NCBI RefSeq assembly: GCF_009753675.1
Contig: NZ_WQLV01000018.1
Coordinates: 1 to 64,000 of the forward strand
Direction: 5' to 3'
DNA: 64,000 nucleotides
DNA from: Parasedimentitalea huanghaiensis
GTDB lineage: Bacteria; Pseudomonadota; Alphaproteobacteria; Rhodobacterales; Rhodobacteraceae
Part shown: piece after piece, positions 11,491 to 43,514 of the stretch
How positions within the stretch are numbered: the stretch's first letter is position 1
Layout: each line of letters starts with the position of its first letter
The notes under the pieces: model-generated
The model's database searches: none
The model's input: the letters and a program-made list of their open reading frames with translations, nothing else
Told to the model about the DNA's origin: nothing
Program-made: the position numbers and the translations under genes

Positions 11491-13218
11491 CTATTCCAGC
11501 TGAAATTTCTTTATTTTATTATACAGTGTTCGGGGCGCCATCCCCAGATGTCGGGCAGTTTCTCCCTTGCGGTAATTGTGCTGCCTCAACGCGTCAGCTA
11601 TCCAGTCTCGCTCACTAATGGGCTCGGCGGCCCCCCCAGAATAAATCTGTTTTGGGGGCTCGGACACTTGAGCTGATTTTAGGAAACTTACATCTTGCGC
11701 TGTAACTCGTCCGGTTGCATTCAGGGTCACGACTCTTCGGATCACATTCAACAGCTCTCGGACGTTTCCTGGCCACTCATGTTCAATGAGGATCCTGAGC
11801 GCCGCATTGGTGAACAATACATCCGTGCCTTGGGTGAAGGTGCGGGCAAAGTAACTGGCCAACTCGGCTATGTCGTCCCGTCTATCACGCAGTGGTGGTA
11901 CAACAATCTCAATTGTATTGATGCGATGGTACAGATCACGGCGAAATATCTTGGCCTGGACCAGCGTTTCCAGATCCTGATTGCTAGTGGTAATCAAGCG
12001 GGCATTCACCGTCCGCCCGTCCAGTGCTCCAATTCGCTGGACATAGCCTGTTTCGGCAAACCGTAACATCAATCCTTGCAAGTCAGAGTTCAGCGCAGAG
12101 ACCTCCTCGAGGATGAGACTATTGCCATGTGCGGACTCCAACGCGCCACGGGCCAACGGGACATCGCGACGGTTCAACCCGGCGACCTGCCCTAGCAACT
12201 GAATAGACCCGATGTCGGTCGACAAGCCCGTACAATCTACAACCACCGGATCCCGTTTTGATGTACTGTTTTGAACGTGAATGTCCGCGGCCAGTATGCT
12301 TTTGCCTGTGCCCGTTTCGCCAGTGATCAAGATGGGCAAATCGCTTGGGGCCACATCGGCAACGACTTTGCGCAGGTCTTGCATGATGTGGGAACCGCCA
12401 ACAAAAACTGCAGACCGGGTCGAATTGCTTTTGGCCCCCCGCCCCATTTTGGAAATTATCGTGTAGGAGCGAGCAACTTCCTTGATTGCGTGTTCTATCG
12501 GTAAGCGGTCGATAGTGGAGCCTGCGATGTAACCGTTAACTCTGCTGAGTCTTGTAACCGTCAGCGCGTCTTCGGGGGATGTTATTGGGCCGCCCTCAAT
12601 CAAGGTTTCGACGGTATCAGGGATACCTTCGAGAACCCGGTTTGCCAAATCTGCTGCGGCTTCCAGTGTCAGGTTTGTTGATACTCCAGTGCCACCGCCA
12701 GTGAAGCCAACAACCACACAAATACGTTCGGCGCCGGCATCATGCATCATCCGCGCCTCACGGTTCGTGCAAACATAGGCCAGCGTTTTCAAATCCTGTG
12801 CAGCCGCGGCACGGATTAGGTCACATTCCTTGCCAAACCCGATCCCTTCGGCTTCCATCAACTGGCGCAGTTGCCCCTCGAGCATTGCGGAAGAGGGAAA
12901 ATTGCACACGCCAGCGAAACCTATGTCCTTTGCCTTTTCCACGATTTCAGCCGGATCGATAGCCGGATCCCGGACGTTCAAACCCGCCAGAACTGGGGAA
13001 GAACAGCGATGCAAAATCTCTTCCTCGGCGATCTCAAAGACCCATTCATTTGCCGGACGCAATGGCAAATAGGCTGCCAAAGATGAGGCCCCTCGCATTC
13101 GCAGTCTGCCCGCATTGAGGACTAGCAAGAAATCTGCACCGGCCCGATCCACTGCAAGTGCGGTTAGACCCGACCCGACAGCTGCACCAAAGATAAAGGG
13201 TTTTTTTTGCTCGCTCAT
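11491..13218 (-). CDS. TIM-barrel-sensor AAA+ Fis-type regulator lacking GAFTGA
   Basis: This 575-residue regulator has an unusual sensor. Residues about 1-270 are a phosphoenolpyruvate-hydrolase-like TIM barrel (PF09370 type), clearly homologous to the enzyme at 19826-20686. Shared segments include LNAGRLRMRGASSLAAYLP and AGLNVRDP. Residues about 285-510 are a sigma54-activator AAA+ domain with Walker A GETGTGK. A C-terminal Fis-type HTH (about 540-575) has GETARHLGMAPRTLYNKIKKF. The sigma54-contacting GAFTGA loop is absent: the equivalent stretch reads AGLNRRDVPLARGALESA. Walker B is LILEEVS instead of FLDE. It therefore probably does not drive sigma54 promoters and may act like TyrR on sigma70. 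Its start overlaps the stop of the upstream gene (ATGA). It is divergent from the LIV operon it probably controls. Confidence 0.88.
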   Translation of the reverse strand: MSEQKKPFIFGAAVGSGLTALAVDRAGADFLLVLNAGRLRMRGASSLAAYLPLRPANEWVFEIAEEEILHRCSSPVLAGLNVRDPAIDPAEIVEKAKDIGFAGVCNFPSSAMLEGQLRQLMEAEGIGFGKECDLIRAAAAQDLKTLAYVCTNREARMMHDAGAERICVVVGFTGGGTGVSTNLTLEAAADLANRVLEGIPDTVETLIEGGPITSPEDALTVTRLSRVNGYIAGSTIDRLPIEHAIKEVARSYTIISKMGRGAKSNSTRSAVFVGGSHIMQDLRKVVADVAPSDLPILITGETGTGKSILAADIHVQNSTSKRDPVVVDCTGLSTDIGSIQLLGQVAGLNRRDVPLARGALESAHGNSLILEEVSALNSDLQGLMLRFAETGYVQRIGALDGRTVNARLITTSNQDLETLVQAKIFRRDLYHRINTIEIVVPPLRDRRDDIAELASYFARTFTQGTDVLFTNAALRILIEHEWPGNVRELLNVIRRVVTLNATGRVTAQDVSFLKSAQVSEPPKQIYSGGAAEPISERDWIADALRQHNYRKGETARHLGMAPRTLYNKIKKFQLE

Positions 13219-13862
13219 GTCTGAGCCAGATAGGCTACCGAACCATCTGCCCCCACATCCACCGCTCGAATGTTGTTGTTCAGCGCAGCATGCTCATAGA
13301 ATAAAATCTCCACACCCTCGGCCTGGCGATGCAGCTTTTCGATTAAACCGCGCAGGGAGGCGATCAACAGATCTGGTGGCCCGTCGTCAGTCTGCGTAAT
13401 CAGCCCAGGATGTAGCACCAGGTGTCGTAGACCTGCATTCAACGCTGCGCGTCCCTGTTCTAAAGATCGGAAGAACGCCAAGGTTTGAAAGCCATATCGC
13501 TTCGCACCAGCAAGCCAGGCGTACTCCAAATCTGATGTGGCGGGCATTGATGCCATCAGTTGTTTGACCTGACCCTGAAACAGTATCGCAGAGGGCCAAT
13601 TGGCTACGCCTGAATACCCGTGGTCGTCAAGTCGGCGCAAAAAGCTGTCAGCGGTGCCAAATGGATCACACGTCAGCACGCCAGCATAGGTACCATCTGC
13701 GGTGCGATCCGTCGCAAAGAGGGCCCGGTTATTGTCTATACGAGGCATCACCATTGCCAAATCGGCCTGCCCCCCCGTCAACCCTTGCAGGGCGGGACAA
13801 TAGATAGGCGTCCCTTGTGAGGGAGGTGAATGGGGGATGCCCGTCAAAAGTAACCGTTTCAT
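13215..13862 (-). CDS. Degenerate phosphoenolpyruvate-hydrolase-like TIM-barrel protein
   Basis: This 215-residue protein resembles the TIM-barrel domain of its neighbours. The stretch GVLTCDPFGTADSFLRRLDDHGYSGVANWPSAILFQGQVKQLM aligns with the corresponding part of the enzyme at 19826 and of the regulator at 11491, though the sequence is shorter and the surrounding motifs have drifted. It lacks the N-terminal N-A/S-GRxRM motif seen in the other two. It is translationally coupled to the regulator by a 4-base overlap. A partner or antagonist of the sensor, or a second enzyme, are both possible. The role is unknown. Confidence 0.7.
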   Translation of the reverse strand: MKRLLLTGIPHSPPSQGTPIYCPALQGLTGGQADLAMVMPRIDNNRALFATDRTADGTYAGVLTCDPFGTADSFLRRLDDHGYSGVANWPSAILFQGQVKQLMASMPATSDLEYAWLAGAKRYGFQTLAFFRSLEQGRAALNAGLRHLVLHPGLITQTDDGPPDLLIASLRGLIEKLHRQAEGVEILFYEHAALNNNIRAVDVGADGSVAYLAQT

Positions 13863-13879
13863 GATGTCTCTATATCAGC

Positions 13880-13924
13880 AAAAATCGGCAAAAACAGGCG
13901 GGTATTTCCGTTTTGCCGATTTTT
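13880..13924. promoter_or_regulatory. Perfect 14-bp dyad in the divergent promoter region
   Basis: AAAAATCGGCAAAA (13880-13893) and TTTTGCCGATTTTT (13911-13924) are a perfect inverted repeat with a 17-base spacer, lying between the regulator operon and the LIV operon. It is the natural candidate for the binding site of the Fis-type regulator. It could also fold as a hairpin in either transcript. No convincing -24/-12 element is present between here and 14045. Confidence 0.6.
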
Positions 13925-14044
13925 CGCGGCGGTGCGATTTTCAACCATCTGTTTTTGCTCGATTAAAATTTTGGAACTTAAGTCAATTTGCGTTGAGGCA
14001 CCGGCATGTATTGCTGAAAATGTATCAAACACTAGGGAGATTTC

Positions 14045-14911
14045 ATGACGTTCTTTCTGATCGTTACGCTAAATGGACTGACACTCGCGGCACTGTATTT
14101 CCTGGCAGCCAGCGGGTTCACTCTAATTTTTGGCCTGATGCGCACCGTAAACATGGCGCACGGAGCCCTTCTGTTGCTGGGTGGATACGTGGGCTTTGAG
14201 GTGGCAAAGACCACCGGTATCTGGCCGTTAGCTATACTGGGCGGCGGTCTGGCTGCGGCGCTTGTGGGCGCAATTATCCAGTTTGGTATCCTTGGCAGAT
14301 TTCAGGGAGATGAGCTGCGTCAGACGCTGGCATCGATTGCACTGTCAATTATCATGGCTGACCTGATGTTGTGGTTCTGGGGTGGCATCACCTATCAAGT
14401 GGCCATGCCCGACGCCTTGGCTGGTGGGTTCCGGTTGCCACTTCTTGGGGTAGGATATGCCACTATCCGCTTGGTTCTCATCGCCTTTGCTATCGTTGTT
14501 GGTATTGCCCTGTGGCTTGTCATTGCCAAAACTCGACTGGGCGCAATCATCCGCGCAGGGGTCGATGACCGTGAAATGCTGCGCGCGCTTGGTTTCGATG
14601 TGGCAAAAATATTTGTTGTTGTTTTTGCACTGGGTGGTTTGCTTGCCGGTATGGCGGGTGTTGTGGCCGCAAGCGCGCTATCCATATCGCCGGGCACCGA
14701 TCTTCAGTTCCTTCTGTCCTCGCTGGTCGTTGTCATCGTTGGTGGCATGGGCAGCGTTGGCGGCGCGGCACTTGGCGCGCTTCTGATCGGGCTGGCAGAG
14801 CAATATGGGCTCGCATATGCTCCAACCTATGGTGTGGTCTTTACCTTTGCTATCATGGTGCTGGTTCTCGCGGTCAGACCACAGGGTCTGCTTGGAAGGT
14901 CAGAAGCATGA
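14045..14911 (+). CDS. Branched-chain amino-acid-type ABC permease (LivH-like)
   Basis: This is a 288-residue inner-membrane permease of the LivH family, with about eight hydrophobic segments. It has the family's N-terminal NGLTLAALYFLAASGFTLIFGLMRTVNMAHGAL region and the conserved loop RAGVDDREMLRALGFDV. An AGGGAG ribosome-binding site precedes the ATG. The stop overlaps the start of the LivM-like gene (ATGA). It is the first gene of an eight-gene operon. LIV-type transporters carry many substrates besides amino acids (amides, urea, aromatic acids), so the substrate is open. Confidence 0.9.
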   Translation: MTFFLIVTLNGLTLAALYFLAASGFTLIFGLMRTVNMAHGALLLLGGYVGFEVAKTTGIWPLAILGGGLAAALVGAIIQFGILGRFQGDELRQTLASIALSIIMADLMLWFWGGITYQVAMPDALAGGFRLPLLGVGYATIRLVLIAFAIVVGIALWLVIAKTRLGAIIRAGVDDREMLRALGFDVAKIFVVVFALGGLLAGMAGVVAASALSISPGTDLQFLLSSLVVVIVGGMGSVGGAALGALLIGLAEQYGLAYAPTYGVVFTFAIMVLVLAVRPQGLLGRSEA

Positions 14912-15870
14912 GGACCGCGTTTTATCTTCTTCCGCTTGCGATGGCACCGCTTTTTGCCAATGATTTCTGGTTGGTCCAGATATTGGGTCGAGCTTTGAGC
15001 CTGGGTGTCATTGCGCTGAGTCTGACGTTTTTGGCGGCCTATCTTGGTGTGGTCTCTTTTGCCCAAACAACTATGGCAGGGGTGGCGGGCTATACCGTCG
15101 CCTATTTCGGACCAAATACTGTAGATGTCGGCTATGAGTTGCCGTTCTACGTGATCCTACCGCTTGCGATGATCATGGCCACCCTCTCCGGGGCATTGAT
15201 CGGGCTGATCGCGCGGCGCAGTCAGGGCATCTATGCGATCATGATCACGCTGGCGATTGCTGTGGCGTTCTTCTACTTCACCCGCCAAAACTATTCGGTC
15301 TTCAATGGCTGGACCGGCTTCTCGGGGCTACGGGCACCAGATATTGCAGGCATAAATCTACGGGCACCCGTACCGTTTTATCTGCTGTGTCTTGGCGTGG
15401 CGGCCTTGTCTCTGGTCCTTGTCAACGGCTTCATCAAATCTCCGCTGGGTCTGACCATTCAAGCCGTCCGAGATGAGCCAAAGCGGGTGCTGGCGATTGG
15501 TATCCCGACCACACCGGTCATTGTGGCAGCCTATGCGTTTGCCGGATTCATCGCTGGATCAGGTGGCATTCTGAACATTTGGCTTCAGGAACGGATTTCA
15601 TCCTTTTCGGTCGGGCTTGGTCCCATTGTGGATATTCTAGTCATCGCGGTTATTGGCGGATTGAAGCATCCGATCGGAGCATTCATCGGCGCGATTGCCT
15701 TTGTTTTACTCGACACCTTCGCCGTCGATTTCATTGACCGCGAGAGGTTCAACACACTCATCGGTCTCGTATTACTTGCCATCATTATGGGGGCTCCTGA
15801 TGGCCTGCATGGGTTGGCGAAATCATGGTTGTCCCGTTCCGCAAAACGACCAGCCAAAATCAAAACGTAA
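14908..15870 (+). CDS. Branched-chain amino-acid-type ABC permease (LivM-like)
   Basis: This is a 320-residue second permease subunit. It has the LivM signature LGVVSFAQTTMAGVAGYTVAYF (about 49-70) and the coupling loop SPLGLTIQAVRDEPKRVLAIGIPT. About ten hydrophobic segments are visible. It is translationally coupled to the LivH-like gene by an ATGA overlap. A GGAGG lies in the 14-base gap before the binding-protein gene, so the set is one operon. Confidence 0.9.
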   Translation: MRTAFYLLPLAMAPLFANDFWLVQILGRALSLGVIALSLTFLAAYLGVVSFAQTTMAGVAGYTVAYFGPNTVDVGYELPFYVILPLAMIMATLSGALIGLIARRSQGIYAIMITLAIAVAFFYFTRQNYSVFNGWTGFSGLRAPDIAGINLRAPVPFYLLCLGVAALSLVLVNGFIKSPLGLTIQAVRDEPKRVLAIGIPTTPVIVAAYAFAGFIAGSGGILNIWLQERISSFSVGLGPIVDILVIAVIGGLKHPIGAFIGAIAFVLLDTFAVDFIDRERFNTLIGLVLLAIIMGAPDGLHGLAKSWLSRSAKRPAKIKT

Positions 15871-15884
15871 ACAGGGAGGAAACA

Positions 15885-17132
15885 ATGTTTACCAATCTAA
15901 GAGCTATTACGATGACCTCGATATTGGCGCTCGGGGTGTTCACCGCACCTGCGTCAGCTGAAGACATCAAGATCGGCGTCATCTCGATCCTAGAGGGTGC
16001 ATTTGCAGCGCTTGGTCAAGACGGTATTCGCGGAGCAGAGCTTGCCGTTGCTGAGGCAGGAGGCGAAGTGGCTGGCAACAAGATCGAAGTGATCACAATG
16101 TCATCCGACGCCAGCCCGGACAGTGCGGTAAACGCGGCGCGCAAATTGATCGAACAAGATGGCGTCGACATCATTGTTGGACCTTTGTCTGGCTCTGAGG
16201 GGCTGGCCTTGCGCGATCTCTCAAAATCCTACCCTGCGGTGACCTTCCTGAATGGATCATCCGCAGCACAGGACACAACGTTGCGCGACTCATCCGATAA
16301 CTTCTTCCGCTTTGGTGGCGATGGTGCCCAGTGGATGGCCGGTGTCGGCAACTACGCCCACGACGATCTAGGATACCAGAAAGTTGCGGTTGTGGCTGAG
16401 GATTATTCCTTCCCCTACACGCAGGTTCTTGGGTTTATGACCGAATTCTGTGCAGCTGGCGGTTCAGTTCCGGATAAATTCTGGACGCCGATTGGAACCA
16501 AGGACTATTCATCTGTCGTCTATTCTATCCCATCAGATGTTGATGCGATTTTTGTTGCACTTGGCGGTGCAGACGCCGTGAACTTTCTAACCCAGTATAA
16601 TCAGGCTGGGGGTGACAAACCCATCATCGGCGGCTCGATCACAATCGACCAATCTATCCTAGATAGTGAAGGCCCCTTTAAGAAGCAGCTGATCGGCGCG
16701 CCTGCGGGCACCCCAACGGTCAGTGATCTGGACGGCACAGAATGGAAAGCGTTCACTGCCAGCTATACCGAACACTTCCCCGATGGCTTTACAGCGCCGT
16801 CGATCTTTGCGCACCACTACTACATGAGCGCACATGCGGCAGTTCTAGCCTTGGAAGAAGTCAAAGGTGACTTGTCCGGCGACCAGGCAGCATTTCGCGC
16901 CGCACTGTCCGACTTGCAGTTTGTAACGCCAACAGGTGGAACAATGCGCTTGGATGAAAACCGCAACGGCATCGTTGATAATTTCGTGACCGAAGTGTTT
17001 GAGCGCGAAGATGGCACCCTTGGCAATCGAGTGGTCAAAATCATCAGTGATGTTGATCAGTCACTTGGCCAGGATCCTTCCGCCTTTTTGGCGCAAGGGC
17101 CAGTAAGCCGGGACAATCCTTCGTGCCCGTAA
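15885..17132 (+). CDS. LIV-type periplasmic binding protein
   Basis: This 415-residue type I periplasmic binding protein has a Sec signal peptide that ends ASA at residue 25. The mature part starts EDIKIGVISILEGAFAALGQDGIRGAELAV, the usual LivJ-like opening. It continues with VDIIVGPLSGSEGLAL and GYQKVAVVAEDYSFPY, which line the two-lobe cleft. I chose the ATG at 15885 because GGGAGGAAACA lies directly before it and a signal peptide follows. Its stop overlaps the GTG start of the ATPase by ten bases. Confidence 0.9.
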   Translation: MFTNLRAITMTSILALGVFTAPASAEDIKIGVISILEGAFAALGQDGIRGAELAVAEAGGEVAGNKIEVITMSSDASPDSAVNAARKLIEQDGVDIIVGPLSGSEGLALRDLSKSYPAVTFLNGSSAAQDTTLRDSSDNFFRFGGDGAQWMAGVGNYAHDDLGYQKVAVVAEDYSFPYTQVLGFMTEFCAAGGSVPDKFWTPIGTKDYSSVVYSIPSDVDAIFVALGGADAVNFLTQYNQAGGDKPIIGGSITIDQSILDSEGPFKKQLIGAPAGTPTVSDLDGTEWKAFTASYTEHFPDGFTAPSIFAHHYYMSAHAAVLALEEVKGDLSGDQAAFRAALSDLQFVTPTGGTMRLDENRNGIVDNFVTEVFEREDGTLGNRVVKIISDVDQSLGQDPSAFLAQGPVSRDNPSCP

Positions 17133-17896
17133 GCTACGACCATAAAGCAGCCAACGCCCTGGAAATTCAGGGTGTTGGTCGCCGCTTCGGTGGTTTTTGG
17201 GCCGTCAAGGATGTATCCTTGACTGTCCGGCCCGGTGAACGTCGCGCGGTTTTAGGACCGAACGGCGCTGGTAAGACCACTTTATTTAATGTTTTGACGG
17301 GCGATCTGGTGACCTCTGCGGGCACAATCCGCATGGACGGAGCCGATGTGACCCAAATGCCAATGCACAAACGCATCAAGGGCGGACTGCGCCGTACCTA
17401 TCAACACGCACATCTGTTTAACGGGCTGACCGTTCGTGACTCCCTATTTTTATCCGTATGTGGCGTAGCGGGAGGCTGGCAAAGATTTATGCCACTGCGG
17501 CTCAATGATGGTGCTGTTGCCAAAGCCGAGACCCTTGCTCAGTTGTCAGGCCTCAGCGCAGAACTGGACCGAGAGGTTGCCAACCTGTCCCATGGCCAGC
17601 GGCGCCAGTTGGAAATCGGCATGGCACTGGCGGAAAACCCTAAGATGTTATTGCTGGATGAACCAGCCGCAGGCCTGTCGCCCAGTGAACGGCCGCGGTT
17701 GGCTGAACTTCTATTATCGCTTCCCAAGCATATCACGATCATCCTGATCGAACACGATATGGATATCGCCCTTAAGACGTCGGACAGCGTTTCAGTTTTG
17801 CACAATGGTCAGCTGTTGGCCGAAGGCACCCCCGAAAACATCATGTCGAATGAAGCGGTGCATAAGGTTTATATGGGAGGGGCGCATGGCCACTGA
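17123..17896 (+). CDS. LIV-type ABC ATPase (LivG-like)
   Basis: This is a 257-residue ATPase. It has Walker [10 protein letters not shown], the LivG-type [15 protein letters not shown] segment, an ABC signature [16 protein letters not shown] and Walker [13 protein letters not shown]. The GTG start lies inside the 3' end of the binding-protein gene, and the 3' end overlaps the LivF-like gene by 11 bases, so it is tightly coupled to both. The signature has H in place of the second S/G, a common LivG variant. Confidence 0.9.
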
Positions 17897-18623
17897 ATCC
17901 TTGCTAAGCATACGCGATTTGCAGGTTCACTATGGAACCAGCCACGTATTGCATGGCGTAAACCTTGATGTGGATCGCATTTCTTTGGGCATGCTGGGGC
18001 GTAACGGCATGGGCAAAACCACGCTGTGTGCCGCGATCATGGGGTTGGTGCCAGCAACCGGTGGGTCGATCCATTTTGATGGCCAAAACATCACCGATGC
18101 GACTCCAGAAAAACGCGCACAGCTGGGTATAGGCTATGTCCCACAGGGACGCCGAATATTCCGATCCCTAACGGTCGAAGAACACCTGCGCATGATGCAA
18201 CGCAAAGGCAGCGCCTGGACGGTTGATCGTGTGTTCGACACATTTACACGTCTCAGAGAACGCCGCCGCAATCTGGGTGATCAATTGTCTGGTGGGGAGC
18301 AGCAAATGTTGGCTATCTCGCGCGCCCTTATGCTCGACCCTAAGCTACTGGTGCTGGATGAGCCGACCGAAGGTTTGGCGCCTGCCATCGTGTCGGATGT
18401 CATCGACCTTGTTGCCCGTTTGTCAGCCGATGGCATGGGCATATTGCTGGTGGAACAAAACATTCACGCCGCCTTTGCCGTCGCGCAAAACGTGGCAATT
18501 ATGGTCAATGGTGAGATCGTAGAAACCCTGCCCGCCGCTGATCTTGAGGGCGACACAGAGCTTCAGAAACGCCACCTCGGAATTGAGCCGGGACAGGTCA
18601 TGGCCGAAGGAGATATCACATGA
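17886..18623 (+). CDS. LIV-type ABC ATPase (LivF-like)
   Basis: This is a 245-residue ATPase and partner of the LivG-like subunit. It has Walker A GRNGMGKTT, a Q-loop at YVPQGRRIF, the signature LSGGEQQMLAISRAL and Walker B LLVLDEPTEGLAP. I chose the ATG at 17886, which overlaps the upstream gene, because translation from it begins with the usual [14 protein letters not shown]. The stop overlaps the start of the UPF0261 gene, which links transport to the downstream enzymes. Confidence 0.9.
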   Translation: MATESLLSIRDLQVHYGTSHVLHGVNLDVDRISLGMLGRNGMGKTTLCAAIMGLVPATGGSIHFDGQNITDATPEKRAQLGIGYVPQGRRIFRSLTVEEHLRMMQRKGSAWTVDRVFDTFTRLRERRRNLGDQLSGGEQQMLAISRALMLDPKLLVLDEPTEGLAPAIVSDVIDLVARLSADGMGILLVEQNIHAAFAVAQNVAIMVNGEIVETLPAADLEGDTELQKRHLGIEPGQVMAEGDIT

Positions 18624-19816
18624 GCAAAGTCTATGTAATTGGAACCTGTGACACCAAAGCCCCCGAGTTGTGTTTTGTGCGAGATCTTATCCGAGCCACT
18701 GGCGTTGAAACCGTTCTTGTCAATGTAGGTACCAAAGGTGGTGAAGAGGTGGCAGATGTGCCTGCCTCTGAAGTGGCCATGTGCCATCCGGATGGTCCAG
18801 CCTCAGTTTTTGTAAATGATCGCGGACAGGCGGTTGTGGAAATGTCCCGTGCCTTGCGGGCCTTTGTGCTAGAACAAGAGGGCCTAGGTGGCATCATTGG
18901 ATTGGGTGGATCAGGTGGATCGGGCATTATCGCCCCAGCCATGCAAGCCTTGCCAGTCGGCGTGCCAAAAGTGTTGGTCTCGACCTTGGCATCGGGCGAT
19001 GTCTCGGCCTATGTCGGACCATCTGACGTGAACATGTTCCATCCGGTCACGGATGTCTCTGGGCTAAATCGCGTGTCGCGCAAAGTCTTGGGCAATGCGG
19101 CCCACGCGATTTCCGGGATGATGACGTGGCGACCGCCGGTGGTTGTTGACACCCGTCCAGCCATTGCTCTGTCGATGTTTGGCGTGACCACACCGGCGGT
19201 TCAGGCCATGACCGACAGCCTGCAGCAGGAATTCGATTGTCTGGTCTTTCACGCCACCGGAAGTGGTGGGCGCTCTATGGAGCAACTGATCAAGCAGGGC
19301 GACATTTCAGGCGTGCTGGACATCACCACCACGGAAATCTGTGACCTTCTGGTTGGCGGCGTGTTGAGCGCAGGTGAAGACCGTTTGGACAGCATCGCCC
19401 AGACCGGGGTGCCCTATGTTGGGTCGTGTGGCGCTTTGGATATGGTGAATTTTTGGGGGCCGGACTCTGTTCCCGACAGGTTTTCTGACCGGTTGTTCTA
19501 TCACCACAATGCTCAGGTTACGCTGATGCGCACGACGGCTGCGGAAGCTACGCAAATCGGCGACTGGATTGGTCAAAAACTGAACGCCTGTGACGGCCCA
19601 GTTCGCTTTCTTCTTCCGCAGGGCGGAGTGTCTGCGCTGGACGCGGAGGGGTCACCGTTTTGGAACCCCAAGGTTGATGCCGCCTTGTTCCAGGCGCTTG
19701 AAGATACAATAGAACAGACCGAAAACCGTCAGCTGATCAAATTAAATCACCACATAAACGATCCGGAATTTGCAGCGAGTGCTGCGGCCCATTTCCGTGC
19801 AATTGCCAAAGCCTAA
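18620..19816 (+). CDS. Tm-1-like ATP-binding protein (UPF0261)
   Basis: This 398-residue protein of the UPF0261/Tm-1 N-terminal family begins KVYVIGTCDTKAPELCFVRDLI and has the glycine-rich GGIIGLGGSGGSGIIAPAM (about 94-112) and a VFHATGSGGRSMEQL segment. In plants and fungi this domain is fused to a TIM barrel of the kind encoded by the next gene. The two adjacent bacterial genes therefore correspond to the two halves of Tm-1. The biochemical activity is not firmly established. Its start overlaps the livF-like stop (ATGA), so it belongs to the transport operon. Confidence 0.88.
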   Translation: MSKVYVIGTCDTKAPELCFVRDLIRATGVETVLVNVGTKGGEEVADVPASEVAMCHPDGPASVFVNDRGQAVVEMSRALRAFVLEQEGLGGIIGLGGSGGSGIIAPAMQALPVGVPKVLVSTLASGDVSAYVGPSDVNMFHPVTDVSGLNRVSRKVLGNAAHAISGMMTWRPPVVVDTRPAIALSMFGVTTPAVQAMTDSLQQEFDCLVFHATGSGGRSMEQLIKQGDISGVLDITTTEICDLLVGGVLSAGEDRLDSIAQTGVPYVGSCGALDMVNFWGPDSVPDRFSDRLFYHHNAQVTLMRTTAAEATQIGDWIGQKLNACDGPVRFLLPQGGVSALDAEGSPFWNPKVDAALFQALEDTIEQTENRQLIKLNHHINDPEFAASAAAHFRAIAKA

Positions 19817-19825
19817 GAGGATATT

Positions 19826-20686
19826 ATGTCAAAACTCAACAGAACCGAAATCCTCAGAAGACTGCGTGCTAAAATTGCACGGGGTGAAACGCTTGTGGGC
19901 GGTGGGGCCGGAACCGGCCTGTCGGCAAAATGCGAAGAGGCCGGTGGCGTCGACTTGATTGTGATTTACAACTCTGGCCGCTACCGCATGGCGGGCCGTG
20001 GCTCTCTGGCCGGGTACATGTCCTATGGCAACGCCAATGAAATCGTCATGGATATGGCCAGTGAAGTCTTGCCGGTTGTTCAGGACACGCCGGTTCTGGC
20101 AGGTGTAAATGCCACCGATCCTTTTTGCCTGATGGATAAGTTTCTGGATGATCTAAAGGTAACTGGTTTCACCGGTGTTCAGAACTTCCCGACCGTTGGC
20201 CTTATCGACGGAAAGTTTCGCCGCGAGTTGGAACAAACCGGCATGTCATATGCGATGGAGGTCGATATGATTGCCCGTGCGCATGCCAAAGATATGCTGA
20301 CCTCCCCGTATGTTTTCAACCGTGACGAGGCTGTTGCGATGGCCAAAGCAGGCGCTGACATTATCGTAGCGCACTTTGGATTGACCTCAGGGGGGGCAAT
20401 CGGGGCCACCGATACACCTGACATCGACGACTGCGCCGCGCAGTTCAATGACTGGGCCAAAGCCGCCAAGGCTGTGCGCGATGATCTGATTTTTATCTGC
20501 CATGGTGGACCATTGGCCGAACCCGCAGACGCACAGGTTTTTTTGTCGCTTTGCCCTGATTGTCACGGATTCTATGGGGCGTCTTCTATGGAGCGATTGC
20601 CCACAGAACGCGCAATTCGCGAACAAACCGCTGCGTTTGGAAATTTAAAACGCGCCACTCACCAAGTTGTAGGAGCTGCAGAATGA
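19826..20686 (+). CDS. Phosphoenolpyruvate-hydrolase-family TIM-barrel enzyme
   Basis: This is a 286-residue protein of the PF09370 family, predicted to be a TIM barrel. Conserved stretches are [31 protein letters not shown] (about 30-60), [10 protein letters not shown] (about 92-101), [16 protein letters not shown] and [11 protein letters not shown]. The C-terminal [14 protein letters not shown] matches GSTIDRLPIEHAI of the regulator. It pairs with the UPF0261 protein nine bases upstream. The family name implies C-C or P-O hydrolysis, but the physiological substrate is unknown. Its paralogue forms the sensor of the divergent regulator, so enzyme and sensor may bind the same ligand. Confidence 0.88.
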
Positions 20687-33115: not shown

Positions 33116-36100
33116 TCACTTGGCGCATGTAATTGCTTTTTGCAGAGCCACTGCGATTTGATGCCTTTTGAAAGGTTTGGTCAACAACACATCACCTGCA
33201 CCAAGAAATCCAGAATCTTTTGCCGCTTCTGCCGAGTAGCCGGACATGAAAATAATCTTCAGGTTTGGGAAGCGAGCTTTAGCTTCCGCTGCAAATTCCG
33301 GTCCGCTCATGCCACCTGGAAGCACCACATCCGACAACAGCAGATCAAACTGCTTCCCAGATCCTAAAGCTTCTCGAGCTGCGACTGTCCCATCTACGCT
33401 GGTTACCTGATATCCCAACCTACCAAGCATCCTGTTTGTAAGTTCTCGTACCATGGGGTCATCTTCAATTAGTAAAACAGGCTCATTGCTGCCAAGTGGC
33501 GTTTCGACAACGTTTTCTTTAATTGGTTTTACCGCGAGCGAGTGATCTCGAGGCAAGTAAAGCTTGATTGTAGTTCCTTGACCCAGCTCACTGTAAATGC
33601 TGACATGCCCTCCGGATTGCTTAGCAAAACCATAGATCATTGATAGCCCTAAACCGGATCCCTGACCGACCTCTTTAGTCGTGTAGAAAGGCTCGAATGC
33701 TCGCTCCTGCACTTCTTTTGTCATTCCGGTGCCGCTGTCAGAAACAGCCAGCACCACAAAATCACCCTTTGCTGCCTCAGGATTTTTAGCCACATAGCCT
33801 TCATCAAGGCTGGTATTATAGCATTCGATGGTGAGAGTGCCACCATCGGGCATTGCGTGCTGGGCGTTTATCGCAAGGTTAAGAAGAGCGTCTTCGACCC
33901 GGCTGGGATCGGCAGCCGCCGACCAGAGGTTCGAAGGCTCCGGGAATTTTAACAAGATCGTTTCGCCAAGAGATCGGGTAAGTAAATCTGACATCCCTTC
34001 TACCAAAACAGAAAGGTCGATAGGCTGCGTTGTCAGGGACTGTTGCCGCGAGAACGCAAGTAACCGGTGCGTCAGTTCAGCACCCCGATCTGATGTGCGG
34101 ATGATATCCAGCAACAGATCCTTGTTGAAAGCACCTTGGGACTGCATCTCCTCTGCTAACCCAAGAACGATGGCCAGCAGATTATTGAAGTCATGGGCTA
34201 TGCCACCCGTCAACTGACCGACAGCTTCCATTTTTTGGGCCTGCCGCAGACGTTCTTCAGCTACCTTTGCGTCGGTGACATCCTCAACCAGGACATATAG
34301 CCCCATCACGCTACCGTCCTTAGTAAAATCGGGCACATAGGTGCTGTGTACATCGCGCGTGCCACCATCCTTGAACGGCACCGTAGTCTCGTAGACAACT
34401 GTTTCCCCTTTCAGGGCTCGCTCCAAATGTTTTTCTATCACCCCATAGGCAACGTCACCTATCACGGCTTTGACATGTTGGCCTTTGAACTCGCCTTGCG
34501 CGTCACCGAACCAATCCTCGTAAACTTTATTGTTGAATTGGTAGCGCCTGTTAGCATCCACATATGCAATCAGAAGAGGCACTGAATCCGTCAGCAATCG
34601 TAACCGCTCCTCGCTGTCGCGCAGGGCTTCGGCTGCAAGGACAAAACGTTTTGCGATACTCAATCGCCACATCATGAAGCCAATCAAGGAGCCAAGGAGA
34701 ACAAGTATCACAGCGGCTTGAAACCAGATTTCTTGCCAGAATGGTGGGTGAACGGTAACTACAAGACTAGTACTTTCACCCCAGGGGCCATCCCCGACCC
34801 GACCCTGAACAATCAGAGTATACTGCCCACCAGGAACCCTGCTGTACCTGCCAAGTGACGCACTGTCGGCGACAAACCAGTCCCTTGCGAAGTTCTCTAG
34901 CTTGTAGCGAATATCCCGGTTTGCGTGCCCAGCACGTCCAATGACCGATGCCTCAAACTCGAAGTCGGTAATGGGCCAATGGATTTCGACCTCTTTGGTA
35001 CGCTCAACTGCGGTTTGAAGAGGCATATCCACACCGCTTTGCGTTAGAGAGGTGAAGATCACACGCGGCAGCGCGCCCTCATCCGTTAACAAGGGAATTG
35101 AAATTACGCCCATTCCTGACAACGTGCCAAGCATAAGATCCTGGCTGCTGGTCATGAATGTTCCTCCGGGCCAACTTAGAAAAACATCACTTGGCAGCGC
35201 ATCCTTGCGGCCATAAGTGGCGACAACACGCCTGCTGCTTGGATCGAACTGAAACACCCCGGCGTTGGTTACTAACCAGAGAAAGCCCTTTTCGTCGGTC
35301 TCGATTGCAAAGATCGTATTGGTTGTGAGGCCGGTCTTGCGCCCCATTCGTTCGAATGTTCCTGTGGATTCATCAAAAACATTCAGGCCGCCTTCAACGG
35401 TGGCTACCCAAAGCTGCCCCTGTGGGCCCAGCTCAACTTCTGACACATTGGAACTGCCGATCGACGTCGGGTCATCGGGGTCGTGAAGGTAGGATGCAAT
35501 GACCTTTTCGCCATCGAATTTTAGCAAACCTTGCCCCCAAGTGGAGAGCCAAAAGGTTCCGCCCTGGGAGACTGCAACCCGAGAGACAAATGCTGCCGTG
35601 ATCCCGGCTTCCATGTTCGAAGAACTGTTGAAAAACTGGTAGTCCCCGTTTGCTGTATCGACCCGGCCTAGGCCACTTGTTTGCGATCCAAACCAAATGA
35701 CTTCCGGGTTGCTCGGGTCATAGACCCCGCCCCAGGTCCCAAATGCCGATTGCGGTGATTTCAGCCGTCTCAGAACTGTCCGAGAAGGGACATCAACCAG
35801 CAGAAAACTGGAATCAACTTCGCCGATCCAAAGCCTTTCGTCAGCGGCCTGTAGAATTGTGTTCACTTCGTTTAACGCTAGAGTATGACTGGGATTTTCA
35901 GAAAGGTCCGAGACAGGCTGCCAGCGCGAATAGCTTTTGGTTTCCTTGTTGTAGCGCTTGAGCCCGCCAACGCCGCCAACCCAAACGCCGCCTGAGCTAT
36001 CTTCACTAACCGCCAAAACTGGTTCTAGGTGCTTTTCAGGTAGGCCCTCATTTTCAAAGCGGGCGGTCCAGATCGACCGGTCCGGGAAAATCCTATAGAT

Positions 36101-37189
36101 TGGGCCGGTGTTGTAGGGCAACCAAATCGTACCATCGCCGGTTTCAAACACCGATAAGATCATCTCGGTAGTGTCCGGTGATGTGGCATTTGGGTTGCGC
36201 AGTATTACATGAAATTTCTCTGTTGCGGGGTCAAACATTTCGACGCCAGCGGCAACGGAAAACAATCGGCCTAGCCAAAGGCGCCCCTGACTATCGACCG
36301 TGACCGTCAGCACATGGTCGCGCGAAATCCCCGATGGATCGTCAGGATCATGGCGGTAATTCTTGAATTCTCCACTGCTGACATCTAGTCGGCTTAGACC
36401 CTTTTCCGTTCCTAGCCAGATCTCGCCGTGGCGACCTTCGGCGACACTATTGACTTGGTCTGATGGCAGACTCGCGGGGTCCAGTGGATCATGGGTATAG
36501 TTTACAAAACTGTCCTTTCCCGGATCAAGGCGACTAAGCCCCGAGCGTGTAGCCACCCAGATGCGGTCTTTTTCGTCGATATGTAGACCCCAGATGTCAT
36601 TCCCAGCAAGCGAGTGAGGGTCCGATGGATCGTGAAAGTAATGACTGAAGCCATCACCGGCTCCCTTCATTACATTGAGGCCGTTGTTTGTTCCCACCCA
36701 AACGGACCCGTCAGAACGTGTAGCTATCAGTCGCGGCACCCAGTTCATAGTGTTGGAACTCAGGCTGTAAGGGTCTGCTGGGTCATGCTGGTATGTAACA
36801 AACGAGTTGTCAGATTTATCATAAGCAACCACGCCACCGGCGCTACGTCCAAACCAAATCCGTCCCTGTTGATCTTCTGCTATCGTTCCAACCCGAGAGA
36901 TGAATGCCGATCCTTTGGTGTTGAAGTACTTCGCGTTTCTATAGTCATATCGCAATGCGCCATTCGCCGTCGCAAACCATAGAATGCCGTCACTGTCTTC
37001 GAACCCTCCGGCTGTAACTGAACCAGAATCCAGAACAAATTCTGGCGTTTCCACCACCTGCGCCGCGGCTCTTGATGTTGAAAAACCTGTGATCGCAGCA
37101 AACAACACAACTAAAACCGGAGAGATTTGAACGGATTTTCGTCGTAATGCCAATAGCCCAAAACGATTCAATAGGGTGCTGTCAAACAT
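33116..37189 (-). CDS. Giant propeller-type hybrid sensor kinase
   Basis: This 1357-residue membrane sensor has a signal/anchor segment (about 18-42), then about 14 Reg_prop repeats of the form IWFATANGALRYD, which build two beta-propellers (about 55-730). A Y_Y_Y domain (about 735-810) and a membrane segment WFQAAVILVLLGSLIGFMMW (about 817-837) follow. A PAS/PAC domain (about 865-975) and HisKA with AHDFNN (His about 998) come next, then HATPase with GSGLGLS. The C-terminal receiver has SDVVLPGG (Asp about 1285). Such proteins, best known in Bacteroidetes, sense polysaccharide fragments or other periplasmic ligands. No output regulator or carbohydrate locus adjoins it, so the signal is unknown. 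Confidence 0.9.
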   Translation of the reverse strand: MFDSTLLNRFGLLALRRKSVQISPVLVVLFAAITGFSTSRAAAQVVETPEFVLDSGSVTAGGFEDSDGILWFATANGALRYDYRNAKYFNTKGSAFISRVGTIAEDQQGRIWFGRSAGGVVAYDKSDNSFVTYQHDPADPYSLSSNTMNWVPRLIATRSDGSVWVGTNNGLNVMKGAGDGFSHYFHDPSDPHSLAGNDIWGLHIDEKDRIWVATRSGLSRLDPGKDSFVNYTHDPLDPASLPSDQVNSVAEGRHGEIWLGTEKGLSRLDVSSGEFKNYRHDPDDPSGISRDHVLTVTVDSQGRLWLGRLFSVAAGVEMFDPATEKFHVILRNPNATSPDTTEMILSVFETGDGTIWLPYNTGPIYRIFPDRSIWTARFENEGLPEKHLEPVLAVSEDSSGGVWVGGVGGLKRYNKETKSYSRWQPVSDLSENPSHTLALNEVNTILQAADERLWIGEVDSSFLLVDVPSRTVLRRLKSPQSAFGTWGGVYDPSNPEVIWFGSQTSGLGRVDTANGDYQFFNSSSNMEAGITAAFVSRVAVSQGGTFWLSTWGQGLLKFDGEKVIASYLHDPDDPTSIGSSNVSEVELGPQGQLWVATVEGGLNVFDESTGTFERMGRKTGLTTNTIFAIETDEKGFLWLVTNAGVFQFDPSSRRVVATYGRKDALPSDVFLSWPGGTFMTSSQDLMLGTLSGMGVISIPLLTDEGALPRVIFTSLTQSGVDMPLQTAVERTKEVEIHWPITDFEFEASVIGRAGHANRDIRYKLENFARDWFVADSASLGRYSRVPGGQYTLIVQGRVGDGPWGESTSLVVTVHPPFWQEIWFQAAVILVLLGSLIGFMMWRLSIAKRFVLAAEALRDSEERLRLLTDSVPLLIAYVDANRRYQFNNKVYEDWFGDAQGEFKGQHVKAVIGDVAYGVIEKHLERALKGETVVYETTVPFKDGGTRDVHSTYVPDFTKDGSVMGLYVLVEDVTDAKVAEERLRQAQKMEAVGQLTGGIAHDFNNLLAIVLGLAEEMQSQGAFNKDLLLDIIRTSDRGAELTHRLLAFSRQQSLTTQPIDLSVLVEGMSDLLTRSLGETILLKFPEPSNLWSAAADPSRVEDALLNLAINAQHAMPDGGTLTIECYNTSLDEGYVAKNPEAAKGDFVVLAVSDSGTGMTKEVQERAFEPFYTTKEVGQGSGLGLSMIYGFAKQSGGHVSIYSELGQGTTIKLYLPRDHSLAVKPIKENVVETPLGSNEPVLLIEDDPMVRELTNRMLGRLGYQVTSVDGTVAAREALGSGKQFDLLLSDVVLPGGMSGPEFAAEAKARFPNLKIIFMSGYSAEAAKDSGFLGAGDVLLTKPFKRHQIAVALQKAITCAK

Positions 37190-38452: not shown

Positions 38453-39328
38453 TTAAAGGTTTGCGATGACACACTTTACACGCCCCACGATACGAATATC
38501 CGCTAGACCCTCTCCCGAAATAGTCTCGGGGGCGATGGACGGATTGTCACTAACAATGACCAACGCCCCCGGTTTGTCATCTTCGGTCACACCAACAGGC
38601 ACAAGACGTTTGATAAAGGCCTCCCCCCTCCGTCTGAAAGCATAAATTCCTTCGCGGGTGTTTCGCGTGTCAGATATGTCCACCAGGACAAGCGATTCGT
38701 CGGGGATAGTTGGGGACATACTGTCGCCGCTTACCTTGACCAATACGCACAGATCAGCGGCCAGGTTATGCTTGCACAGCCAGGACCGCGAGACCGCAAT
38801 GTGATCAGCCTCGGCATTCTCAACCGGGATCAATCTCGCCCCATCTGACAAGCCAATGTCAAACCGGCGGACAAGTGTAAAATCATTCAAATTAGACCGG
38901 TCAACTTCTTGGGTTGCGCGCTCCCCCTGCCCTGTCCAACTATCCCTGGTGGCTTTGACCGAGTTTTGGAAAGCTTCCATTTCGGAGCGGCGCGCGTCTT
39001 CTATGATTTTGGCTACGGCCTCACCTTCGGCCTCATTCGCCCGCTTGAGAGCTTCCATTCCAGGGCGAAAAGCCTCTTCCTTGGCCTTAGTGTATATATC
39101 GTTCATAGCCTTGGATATCTCACGCTTCTCGCTAACTCCCGTTAGCACGTAGAGAACATCTACACCTGCTTTTGCTGCGGCCATGAAATACTCTCCATCC
39201 GGAGATCTTCGTCCTGCTTCATAGTTGAGCTGTGCATTCTTTTTTACGCCTACAAGAATACCAAAATCACCTTGGTTTAAACCAAGTGCTTCGCGTTCCT
39301 GCCGTAGTCGAAATCCCAAGGTATCCAT
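38453..39328 (-). CDS. Mu-like phage repressor, S24 peptidase-type
   Basis: This 291-residue repressor has an N-terminal Cro/C1-type HTH (about 3-60: FRLRQEREALGLNQGDFGILVGVKKNAQLNYEAGRRSPDGEYF). A charged helical linker follows. A C-terminal LexA/CI-like S24 domain has the catalytic Ser in VSGDSMSPT and the Lys in EAFIKRLVPV. It can probably self-cleave or be inactivated by DNA-damage signals. I chose the ATG at 39328 because AAAAGG lies just upstream. It is transcribed leftward, opposite the transposition genes, as in Mu. Two operator-like palindromes cover its start. Confidence 0.87.
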   Translation of the reverse strand: MDTLGFRLRQEREALGLNQGDFGILVGVKKNAQLNYEAGRRSPDGEYFMAAAKAGVDVLYVLTGVSEKREISKAMNDIYTKAKEEAFRPGMEALKRANEAEGEAVAKIIEDARRSEMEAFQNSVKATRDSWTGQGERATQEVDRSNLNDFTLVRRFDIGLSDGARLIPVENAEADHIAVSRSWLCKHNLAADLCVLVKVSGDSMSPTIPDESLVLVDISDTRNTREGIYAFRRRGEAFIKRLVPVGVTEDDKPGALVIVSDNPSIAPETISGEGLADIRIVGRVKCVIANL

Positions 39329-39367
39329 TTGGGTGCCTTTTCTATTGACGGTATTCATTTGAATACA
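39320..39367. promoter_or_regulatory. Twin operators between repressor and early genes
   Basis: GGTATCCATTTGGGTGCC (39320-39337) and GGTATTCATTTGAATACA (39350-39367) are two copies of the same imperfect palindrome, 30 bases apart. The second contains a perfect TATTCA-TT-TGAATA. The first covers the repressor start codon, so the repressor probably limits its own synthesis as well as the early promoter, as in the Mu operator region. Confidence 0.6.
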
Positions 39368-39408
39368 TAGTGTGCGTATCAACAATAGAACGCAGATTGC
39401 GAGGCACT

Positions 39409-39702
39409 ATGACCGATAAGCCATTCCCATACCAGCCGGGCGTAATTCTGTATGACATAATTATCGGACTTTTGCGGGCGCGTGGCACCACTTTTGCCGC
39501 CTGGTGCAAGGAGTTGCAAATTGGAGAAAGCTCTGCCCGCAACGCTCTGTATGGCCAATCTAGTGGTAGTCGGGGGCAAGAGTTACGGGACAATGTCATT
39601 GAGCGCGCCGGCCGCGATCTTGTCGAACGAGCCTATTTCGAGCGCGTAAATCAACATGCCTGTAATGTCGCTAAGGCTATGCAGTCCCGGAGAGCTTCAT
39701 GA
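39409..39702 (+). CDS. Small early DNA-binding protein in Ner position
   Basis: This 97-residue protein contains an HTH-like stretch, RARGTTFAAWCKELQIGESSARNALYGQSSGSRGQEL. It occupies the place of Mu ner, the first rightward early gene divergent from the repressor. I chose the ATG at 39409 because it opens the conserved MTDKPFPYQPG start. It may dampen early transcription. It overlaps the next gene by four bases. Confidence 0.65.
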   Translation: MTDKPFPYQPGVILYDIIIGLLRARGTTFAAWCKELQIGESSARNALYGQSSGSRGQELRDNVIERAGRDLVERAYFERVNQHACNVAKAMQSRRAS

Positions 39703-39977
39703 CCTCCTCCCCGCAACATTCCCAATCCAACCACGCTCCTGCTCGGGCCCGGTTGGACAACTCCCTCGGAGGCCATGGGGATGCGCCGCTGAGGGCTTTT
39801 TATTCTTGCCCACCACTCGCGGAGACGAGCCCCAGCGATTGCACATTAATGCGGAGACGCTGGGGCCAACGCGCCTGGTTTGGCACTGCCCTTTTCTGGC
39901 TCGGCGAGATCCTCGGCGCAGCCTCATTTTTAATAACGCTTACTATTGGTCTATTTTTGGGAGACATTTTTGGATGA
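39699..39977 (+). CDS. Small single-span membrane protein
   Basis: This 92-residue protein has a polar N-terminal half and one hydrophobic segment at the C-terminus (FGTALFWLGEILGAASFLITLTIGLFLGDIF). It overlaps both neighbours by four bases (ATGA), which supports translation as part of the early operon. Family not recognised. Confidence 0.55.
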   Translation: MTSSPQHSQSNHAPARARLDNSLGGHGDAPLRAFYSCPPLAETSPSDCTLMRRRWGQRAWFGTALFWLGEILGAASFLITLTIGLFLGDIFG

Positions 39978-40405
39978 CCTTAGAGGAACAACTTAAGGCC
40001 CGTGCCACCGCGCTAATGCCCGCACCTGCGCGTCTCGAGAGATTTATGGCTGCAGCTACTGAGCAAGCACATTTTGCAACCGTCAAAGCCGATTTGAAGG
40101 TCCAGTTCGCAGCCGTAGACACCATGTCCCACTCCGGCAAATTGATTGCAGATAAACTCGATGACACACGTGAGGATGAGTACCTGGCACACGAAGAAGC
40201 GGCTGCTTGGGCATCGGCATTACTTGAAGACGGAACGCTTGGTGATTGCCTGAGCTTCCTCATCAACCGTGATCAGTTTCAGCAAGCAGTTGCGCAGAGG
40301 AAGCTGGACCTAGACCGGCCAAAAAGCCGCCCAAAGCTGACGACACTATGGGCACGGTTTTTTGGCCAACGCAAAGTTTCTCAGGCCATCTCCCCTACCC
40401 GCTAG
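39974..40405 (+). CDS. Early-region protein of unknown function
   Basis: This 143-residue, mostly helical protein starts MTLEEQLKARATALMPAPARLERFMAAATEQAHF and has a basic C-terminus ending LWARFFGQRKVSQ. It starts inside the upstream gene's stop. It is not recognised. Its position before the ParB-like and transposase genes suggests an accessory role in replication or control. Confidence 0.6.
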   Translation: MTLEEQLKARATALMPAPARLERFMAAATEQAHFATVKADLKVQFAAVDTMSHSGKLIADKLDDTREDEYLAHEEAAAWASALLEDGTLGDCLSFLINRDQFQQAVAQRKLDLDRPKSRPKLTTLWARFFGQRKVSQAISPTR

Positions 40406-40427
40406 TTTTTCATTTAGGAGCATCCCC

Positions 40428-41327
40428 ATGCGTCCCCCACGCCTGATTGAAGTTACAGACATCCCGCTGGACGACATCGACACGTCGAACCGGTTGCGTC
40501 CAGTATCTGAAACGGCTGTTAAAAGCCTGACCCACTCGATTGAGACCCTTGGTCTCCAATCGGAGATCCAACTCCGCAAGATCAAGAAGACCGGCAAGCT
40601 GCGGCTGATAGCCGGCGGACATAGAGTGGCGGCGTTTCGTGCCCTAGGCCACGCTTCTATCCCCGCTAAAGTCTGGGATTGCACCGACGACTGGGCCGAC
40701 CTTGCTGAGATTGACGATAACCTTGCCCACGCCGAACTTGATCCCTTGGAACTCTGCACCTTTCTCGCTCGCCGGAAAGAAGTCTATGAGAGGGCTTATC
40801 CTCAGGCCAAACAAGGTGGCGATCATGGCAATCAGCACACTGGTGGTTGCCAAACGGACATCTTGTCCTTTTGCCAAAGTGTAGCCGAGAAACGGGATAT
40901 TTCTGAACGCCAGGTGCGTCGTCTAGTCGCCGCTGGCCAAGCCCTCGGACCGCGCGAGATCAACGAGCTGCGTGACGCCCCCAAGAAAGTCTCCCTTTCT
41001 GACCTGCAGGAAATCGCCAAATGCGGCTCCGTTACGGATCGCTATGACATTTGCCGCGCCCTGGGCGACGGCTCTGCCAAATCCGCCAAGGAAGTCCTGG
41101 CCCGTAAGAAAGCCCCCGGAACTGCTGTTAAAGACCCGGTTGAGGCGGCGCGTAGCAAATTAAACGACGCTTATTCGCGCGCTCCAAAAGAAGCCCGCCG
41201 TCGGTTTGTCGATGATCACCGCGACGAGCTGCTGGAGCTGTTGGGCGAAGACGCCCCAACCGAACAGGCAGAGTCCCTCGAAACAGACGCCGAGATCGTG
41301 CCCTTCACCTCCAAGAGGGTGGGCTGA
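40428..41327 (+). CDS. ParB/Spo0J-like nuclease-domain protein
   Basis: This 299-residue protein has an N-terminal ParB domain. It opens EVTDIPLDDIDTSNRLRPVSE and contains the signature LIAGGHRVAAFRALGHASIPAKVWD (about 62-86). A central HTH follows at about 155-180 (EKRDISERQVRRLVAAGQALG), in the style of KorB/ParB. There is no parA partner or plasmid maintenance locus here. ParB-like proteins are found ahead of MuA in several alphaproteobacterial Mu-like phages, where they may assist DNA organisation or regulation. It ends four bases before the transposase gene. Confidence 0.85.
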   Translation: MRPPRLIEVTDIPLDDIDTSNRLRPVSETAVKSLTHSIETLGLQSEIQLRKIKKTGKLRLIAGGHRVAAFRALGHASIPAKVWDCTDDWADLAEIDDNLAHAELDPLELCTFLARRKEVYERAYPQAKQGGDHGNQHTGGCQTDILSFCQSVAEKRDISERQVRRLVAAGQALGPREINELRDAPKKVSLSDLQEIAKCGSVTDRYDICRALGDGSAKSAKEVLARKKAPGTAVKDPVEAARSKLNDAYSRAPKEARRRFVDDHRDELLELLGEDAPTEQAESLETDAEIVPFTSKRVG

Positions 41328-41331
41328 TCCC

Positions 41332-43464: not shown

Positions 43465-43514
43465 ACGCCAAAAACGCCGTCCCAATGGCACACATAAGAC
43501 TAAGAGGCACCACA

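Follow-up and report, generated by a model that had tools for sequence, protein, structure and literature searches.

The window, the whole 64,000-nucleotide stretch of Parasedimentitalea huanghaiensis DNA that we analyzed, carries a regulator on its reverse strand and, diverging from it, an operon on the forward strand. The genes and the intergenic repeat of this locus are as follows:

11491..13218, minus strand: regulator with a PF09370 sensor, an AAA+ domain and a Fis helix-turn-helix (HTH), 575 aa (open reading frame and Pfam)
13215..13862, minus strand: companion, a shortened PF09370-like protein of 215 aa (PF09370, 56.5 bits, profile positions 83-187 of 267)
13880..13924: inverted repeat AAAAATCGGCAAAA-N17-TTTTGCCGATTTTT, perfect 14-bp arms and 17-bp gap, candidate operator
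14045..14911, plus strand: branched-chain-type ABC permease, first gene of the operon (PF02653)
14908..15870, plus strand: second ABC permease (PF02653)
15825..17132, plus strand: ABC substrate-binding protein, also given from its first start codon, the true start being probably further in (PF13458)
17123..17896, plus strand: ABC ATPase (PF00005)
17805..18623, plus strand: ABC ATPase, start taken as the first start codon (PF00005)
18620..19816, plus strand: Tm-1-like/UPF0261 protein (PF06792 and PF23189)
19826..20686, plus strand: PF09370 enzyme, paralogue of the regulator's sensor (PF09370, 420 bits; 406 bits to PDB 2p10)

The divergent operon (14045..20686) thus encodes an ABC transporter (two permeases, one binding protein and two ATPases), followed by the UPF0261 (Tm-1-like) protein and the PF09370 enzyme. 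Between it and the regulator lies the companion, which shares 4 bases with the start of the regulator gene and whose predicted structure has a mean pLDDT of 46.9. Both the companion and the inverted repeat had been overlooked in an earlier note on this DNA. Elsewhere in the window we observed a hybrid kinase of 1357 aa with propeller repeats and PAS, HATPase and receiver domains (33116-37189), a Mu-like prophage region in which a Peptidase S24-like repressor lies beside a Mu-type transposase (DDE_2, 752 aa; 38453-45139), and a protein of 712 aa with a C-terminal topoisomerase-type zinc ribbon and a weak match to protein kinases that falls just short of the Pfam cut-off (56016-58154).

All four Pfam domains of the regulator score above their cut-offs, so that a PF09370 sensor, a sigma54-type AAA+ domain and a Fis HTH are combined in one chain. 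Its domains and motifs map as follows:

12460..13206, minus strand: enzyme-derived TIM-barrel sensor domain, aa 5-253 (PF09370, 233 bits)
11905..12402, minus strand: AAA+ domain, aa 273-438 (PF00158, Sigma54_activat, 121 bits)
aa 444-512 of the regulator: AAA_lid_14 (Pfam, above cut-off)
11503..11613, minus strand: Fis-type HTH (HTH_8), aa 536-572 (PF02954, 40 bits)
12298..12321, minus strand: Walker A GETGTGKS, aa 300-307, intact (motif alignment)
12163..12180, minus strand: GLNRRD, aa 347-352, in the GAFTGA position (PDB and joint alignments)
12097..12120, minus strand: Walker B SLILEEVS, aa 367-374, EE for DE (motif alignment)
11920..11946, minus strand: arginine-finger segment FRRDLYHRI, aa 425-433, retained (motif alignment)

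These domains confirm the architecture proposed in the earlier note, a PF09370-like TIM-barrel sensor joined to an AAA+ activator. Its claim that the sigma54 contact loop had been lost also withstood realignment: in the four best distinct PDB alignments obtained with phmmer, GLNRRD of the regulator aligned gap-free with the GAFTGA of ZraR, NifA, NtrC1 and LuxO. Similarly, in a joint alignment a GAFTGA-like motif was found in 10 of 10 outside controls (AAA+ relatives without a PF09370 sensor, taken from a scan of genome contigs), five of which carry GAFTDA or GSFTDA, and was absent from the window regulator. Walker A is intact as claimed. The description of a weakened Walker B holds in part, since the first acidic residue of LILEEVS is E and not D, but the catalytic E is retained and "weakened" is therefore somewhat strong. 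Compared with sigma54-dependent enhancer-binding proteins, the regulator has the Walker A, the Walker B (with E for D) and the arginine finger, and does not have the GAFTGA L1 loop. With these three elements kept and GLNRRD in the place of GAFTGA, the ATP site looks usable whereas the sigma54 contact does not. The predicted structure of the regulator (mean pLDDT 59.8) is good for the AAA+ domain and mostly below 50 for the sensor.

Searches with two domains, PF04552 and PF04963, did not find RpoN in the host genome, which is listed as 99.99% complete, while both domains were detected in the controls E. coli, B. subtilis, Caulobacter and Bacteroides. The sole PF04552 match in the host was weak and was rejected as an RpoN candidate, as Pfam shows a LacI-family protein. 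PF04963 gave no match in any of four genomes (G000, G304, G094 and G286). Because the host genome lacks RpoN, sigma54 activation is ruled out in this host. As the earlier note had stated, the intergenic region offers no good -24/-12 promoter: none with up to 3 mismatches was found within 13800-14100, and among sites with a GG-N10-GC core in 13840-14060 the best agrees at only 4/12. A sigma70 promoter at 9/12 or better was likewise not found in 13800-14100. The sigma54 independence proposed there is thus borne out by the lost contact loop together with the absence of RpoN by both domains.

That the protein is a canonical sigma54 activator whose L1 loop has diverged would agree with the domain annotation and with the sigma-54-dependent label given to 4 of the 36 listed plasmid relatives. 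Effects on sigma54 genes have also been reported, in the part of the paper available to us, for a mutant NtrC without GAFTGA (PMC12421884). Against this stand the host genome without RpoN, the failure to find a -24/-12 site in 13800-14100 and the absence of GAFTGA from every relative inspected (see below). We give this explanation almost no credence, and for this host it is already refuted unless the assembly has missed RpoN.

The host genome contains 14 PF00158 matches, some of which are two pieces of one gene. Six further bEBP-like host proteins (L004, L005, L007, L008, L009 and L055) are without GAFTGA, five of them by motif alignment and L055 by eye, and the L1 stretch is deleted in some; weak partial matches (C2, C16, C36 and C38) were left out of this count.

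We inspected 24 regulators. Genomes supplied 14 of them and plasmids 10, the latter drawn from 36 plasmid records that carry the regulator (11 were fetched and one was dropped as a copy of L036). With an E-value limit of 1e-60, 4 of 394 genomes of the host's family contain the regulator, and it was not found in the other genome of the host's genus. Draws of 385 genomes from the class, 398 from the phylum and 321 from another class contained 9, 4 and 1 carriers, respectively, as judged by frame length; the phylum draw adds one broken copy, in G946, and the draws overlap. The earlier note had called for a comparison with other PF09370-AAA-Fis proteins, and none of the 24 regulators has a GAFTGA-like motif. 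RpoN is present in 10 of the 14 regulator-bearing genomes and absent from G000, G078, G094 and G286, of which G078 is only 83% complete. With RpoN in 10 of these genomes, the loss of GAFTGA is not a mere by-product of RpoN loss. Since all 24 relatives share the loss, including those from genomes with RpoN, it is, as judged from the aligned sequences, an ancestral trait of the PF09370-AAA-Fis family and not peculiar to the window regulator.

The surroundings of the regulator recur as well. Genes for the Tm-1-like protein and the PF09370 enzyme lie near 23 of the 24 regulators, L053 having neither inside its stretch. The divergent operon architecture is retained in L038 and L027, and also in L054, from another class, as judged by ORF lengths and by Tm-1 and enzyme matches. 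In six loci (L028, L029, L031, L032, L033 and L034) the Tm-1-like protein carries an additional part and measures about 750-790 aa, compared with about 400 elsewhere; separately, a UPF0261 gene is among the genes of a Brucella genome comparison, in the part of that study available to us. A short PF09370-like gene accompanies all 24 regulators; in 23 loci phmmer recovered it from a small ORF set with E no higher than 0.001, in a few only via an enzyme or regulator query, and in L033 it appeared only as a sub-cut-off Pfam match of 31.6 bits. This companion adjoins the regulator in most loci and lies about 1.7-4 kb off in L036, L045, L049, L043, L044 and L051.

In activators of this kind it is normally the AAA+ domain that is conserved. 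When we compared the relatives with the window regulator, identities were 34-59% for the sensor, 37-61% for the HTH and 13-43% for the AAA+ core, and in all 23 pairs the sensor and the HTH were more similar than the AAA+ domain. Walker A (G-x4-GK[ST]) is present in only four of the 24 regulators, namely that of the window, L038, L027 and L054, which we refer to as the window clade. It is broken in the other 20, in nine of which GK survives with K or R as the next residue. A pair of acidic residues at Walker B is found in 6 of 24, including all four clade members, and both finger arginines in three (the window regulator, L038 and L054), L027 being without the first. The L1 region of the clade reads as four different sequences. 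The three other clade members share 56-59% (sensor) and 58-61% (HTH) identity with the window regulator; for L054 the values are 57% and 58%, with 40% for the AAA+ domain. Outside the clade, AAA+ identity to the window regulator is 13-30%, no higher than that of unrelated activators (28-34%). Among six relatives, PF00158 scores were 127 bits for L027, 125 for L038, 106 for L054, 76 for L043 and 23 for L037, and for L028 nothing matched up to E 0.001. We rejected the idea that the window clade had acquired an unrelated AAA+ domain, as one branch in a tree of AAA+ plus HTH sets 23 regulators apart (99/94); a tree from AAA+ and lid alone separates the regulators more weakly (89/64).

Motif erosion of this kind across the family, together with the broken copy in G946, would also be seen if the protein were a functionless, decaying remnant. 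However, the 575-codon frame is intact, the three other clade members match the window regulator at 56-59% (sensor) and 58-61% (HTH), Walker A persists in all four, and the neighbourhood is maintained across classes. Hence we regard a remnant as very unlikely.

We also compared the sensor barrel with the PF09370 enzymes. The window sensor matches Mll9387 (PDB 2p10), a homologous PF09370 enzyme, at 136 bits; Mll9387 is free-standing, and the window sensor has lost two histidines that are invariant in the enzymes. These residues, 183 and 226 in the numbering of the window enzyme, are V and E in the sensor, and K35 and Y48 are changed too. Of the 66 columns that are at least 96% conserved among 25 enzymes, the sensor keeps 44. 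Across 23 sensors the first histidine is retained in none and the second in one (L038), and the second was also read by eye in L054. Some family members may therefore still be catalytic. When 70 barrels were placed in a tree, in which the companion branches are long and the bootstrap had not fully settled, the 25 enzymes (99/97), 23 sensors (97/88) and 22 companions (100/99) each fall on one side of a branch. The claimed paralogy between the sensor and the enzyme of the facing operon is upheld by PF09370 in both, although the tree makes it an ancient one. The idea that the sensor arose lately by duplication of the operon enzyme was rejected, as the tree groups all 23 sensors on one branch; the regulator sensors thus appear to form one old branch beside the enzymes.

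The 44 retained columns, and the one histidine left in L038 and L054, would also suit a bifunctional enzyme-regulator whose barrel is still catalytic, as in trigger enzymes. In the window sensor, however, both invariant histidines, K35 and Y48 are altered, and these residues may have a role in catalysis. We consider such a dual function improbable here.

A possible history of the family is that an enzyme barrel was recruited as the sensor, that a single loss at the base removed the sigma54 contact, and that the AAA+ motor was then dismantled stepwise, L1 first and Walker A/B and the arginine finger later, into a pseudo-ATPase scaffold. The shortened sensor sibling would be an obligate partner, and the window clade would represent a surviving ATP-binding stage. 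We put this history forward tentatively, as a reading whose chances fall just short of balanced.

Assessment of the intergenic region revealed the inverted repeat at 13880-13924, which is one of two repeats of its size in the window and was equalled by 0 of 100 shuffles of its stretch. The whole genome of 4.86 Mb has one copy of the form with 12-bp arms and a 10-24-bp gap. The long dyad is not kept in the clade: L038 has a 9-bp dyad, and none was found in L027 and L054 by the same scan. Its left half-site, AGAAATCGGCAA, is loosely common to the clade, in a comparison for which the start codons were partly set by eye. A 12-mer of this kind was equalled by 1 of 60 shuffles and a 10-mer by 7 of 60, weakly above shuffles. 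We take the 13880-13924 dyad as the best candidate operator. Among 53 loci, two Bradyrhizobium plasmids have a TGTTGGA..TCCAGCA dyad upstream of the companion (L047:12497-12522 and L053:12470-12497).

Taken together with the architecture, the loss of GAFTGA, the absence of RpoN, the paralogy, the neighbourhood and the dyad, all of which are read directly from the DNA and its translations, the reading we favor as likely is that the window regulator is a sigma54-independent, metabolite-sensing PF09370-AAA-Fis regulator of the divergent transporter/Tm-1/PF09370 operon. The altered barrel would bind a compound of the Tm-1/PF09370 pathway, be it substrate, intermediate or product. Because Walker A is intact and L1 is lost, the AAA+ domain of the window clade may still bind ATP and serve oligomerization or signal relay, and not the remodelling of sigma54-polymerase. 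The Fis HTH would bind the intergenic region, near the 13880-13924 dyad, with the divergent operon as its target at a housekeeping promoter, and the companion-regulator pair is probably autoregulated. The companion half-barrel, the weakest step of this scheme, is probably a non-catalytic partner or co-sensor.

The protein could instead be a pure repressor, in which the Fis HTH and the AAA+ scaffold shut the divergent promoters until a ligand on the barrel releases them. An activation surface is not identifiable in the window regulator, and bEBPs without GAFTGA repress as well as activate, for example Caulobacter NtrC according to the accessible part of the source (PMC10274813). The position of the dyad cuts both ways: 18-62 bases upstream of the companion start codon, it is suited to blocking the companion promoter, but the first start codon of the operon is more than 100 bases downstream of it. 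Moreover, the clade retains an ATP site that a plain repressor would not need. Pure repression is thus a realistic explanation, if one that we think rather doubtful.

Relatives on rhizobial plasmids, including NGR_RS30945 of pNGR234a, which we take to be y4pA, have the same three domains, Tm-1-like/PF09370 neighbours and a short companion as found in the window. They differ in a Walker A without S/T, a carbohydrate-type transporter and an identity of 33%, and the NGR234 regulator is without the acidic Walker B pair. The N-terminal part of E. coli TyrR is ACT/PAS, unlike the PF09370 sensor of the window regulator, which scores 150.3 bits against the TyrR equivalog model, below the cut-off of 576. 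TyrR, which is metabolite-responsive, nevertheless resembles it in having a sigma54-type AAA+ domain and an HTH; as far as the available text goes, TyrR also lacks GAFTGA and works with sigma70 (PMC6375630). By analogy, TyrR-like sigma70 action is plausible for the window regulator. NtrC of R. capsulatus and Caulobacter likewise has a bEBP fold without the L1 motif and with the ATP site retained, and targets sigma70 promoters; the R. capsulatus protein needs ATP binding and not hydrolysis (PMC10274813, in part). NtrC is driven by a kinase through its REC domain, in place of which the window regulator has an enzyme-derived barrel.

The plant Tm-1-like protein is a fusion of UPF0261 to a PF09370 domain, the same two pathway partners as encoded by the last two genes of the operon; the regulator is absent there, and the accessible part of the source mentions no AAA+ or HTH fusions (PMC5028733). 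The gene y4pA is listed, by name only in the accessible part of the source, as a sigma54 factor copy (PMC9069715). In the literature searched, mostly outside subscription journals, we found no account of PF09370-AAA-Fis regulators as sigma54-independent or of the decay of their AAA+ domain. The component parts are known, and the architecture is already named in databases.

If this interpretation is true, regulators on symbiosis and other plasmids, some of them labelled sigma54-dependent (4 of 36 plasmid records), would be mis-assigned. The family would also provide a natural series on the role of an AAA+ domain after loss of the sigma54 contact, as members with intact and with broken ATP sites have a common sensor, HTH and neighbourhood. 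Lastly, with a pathway compound as the expected inducer, the regulator would offer a genetic handle on the Tm-1-like/PF09370 reaction.
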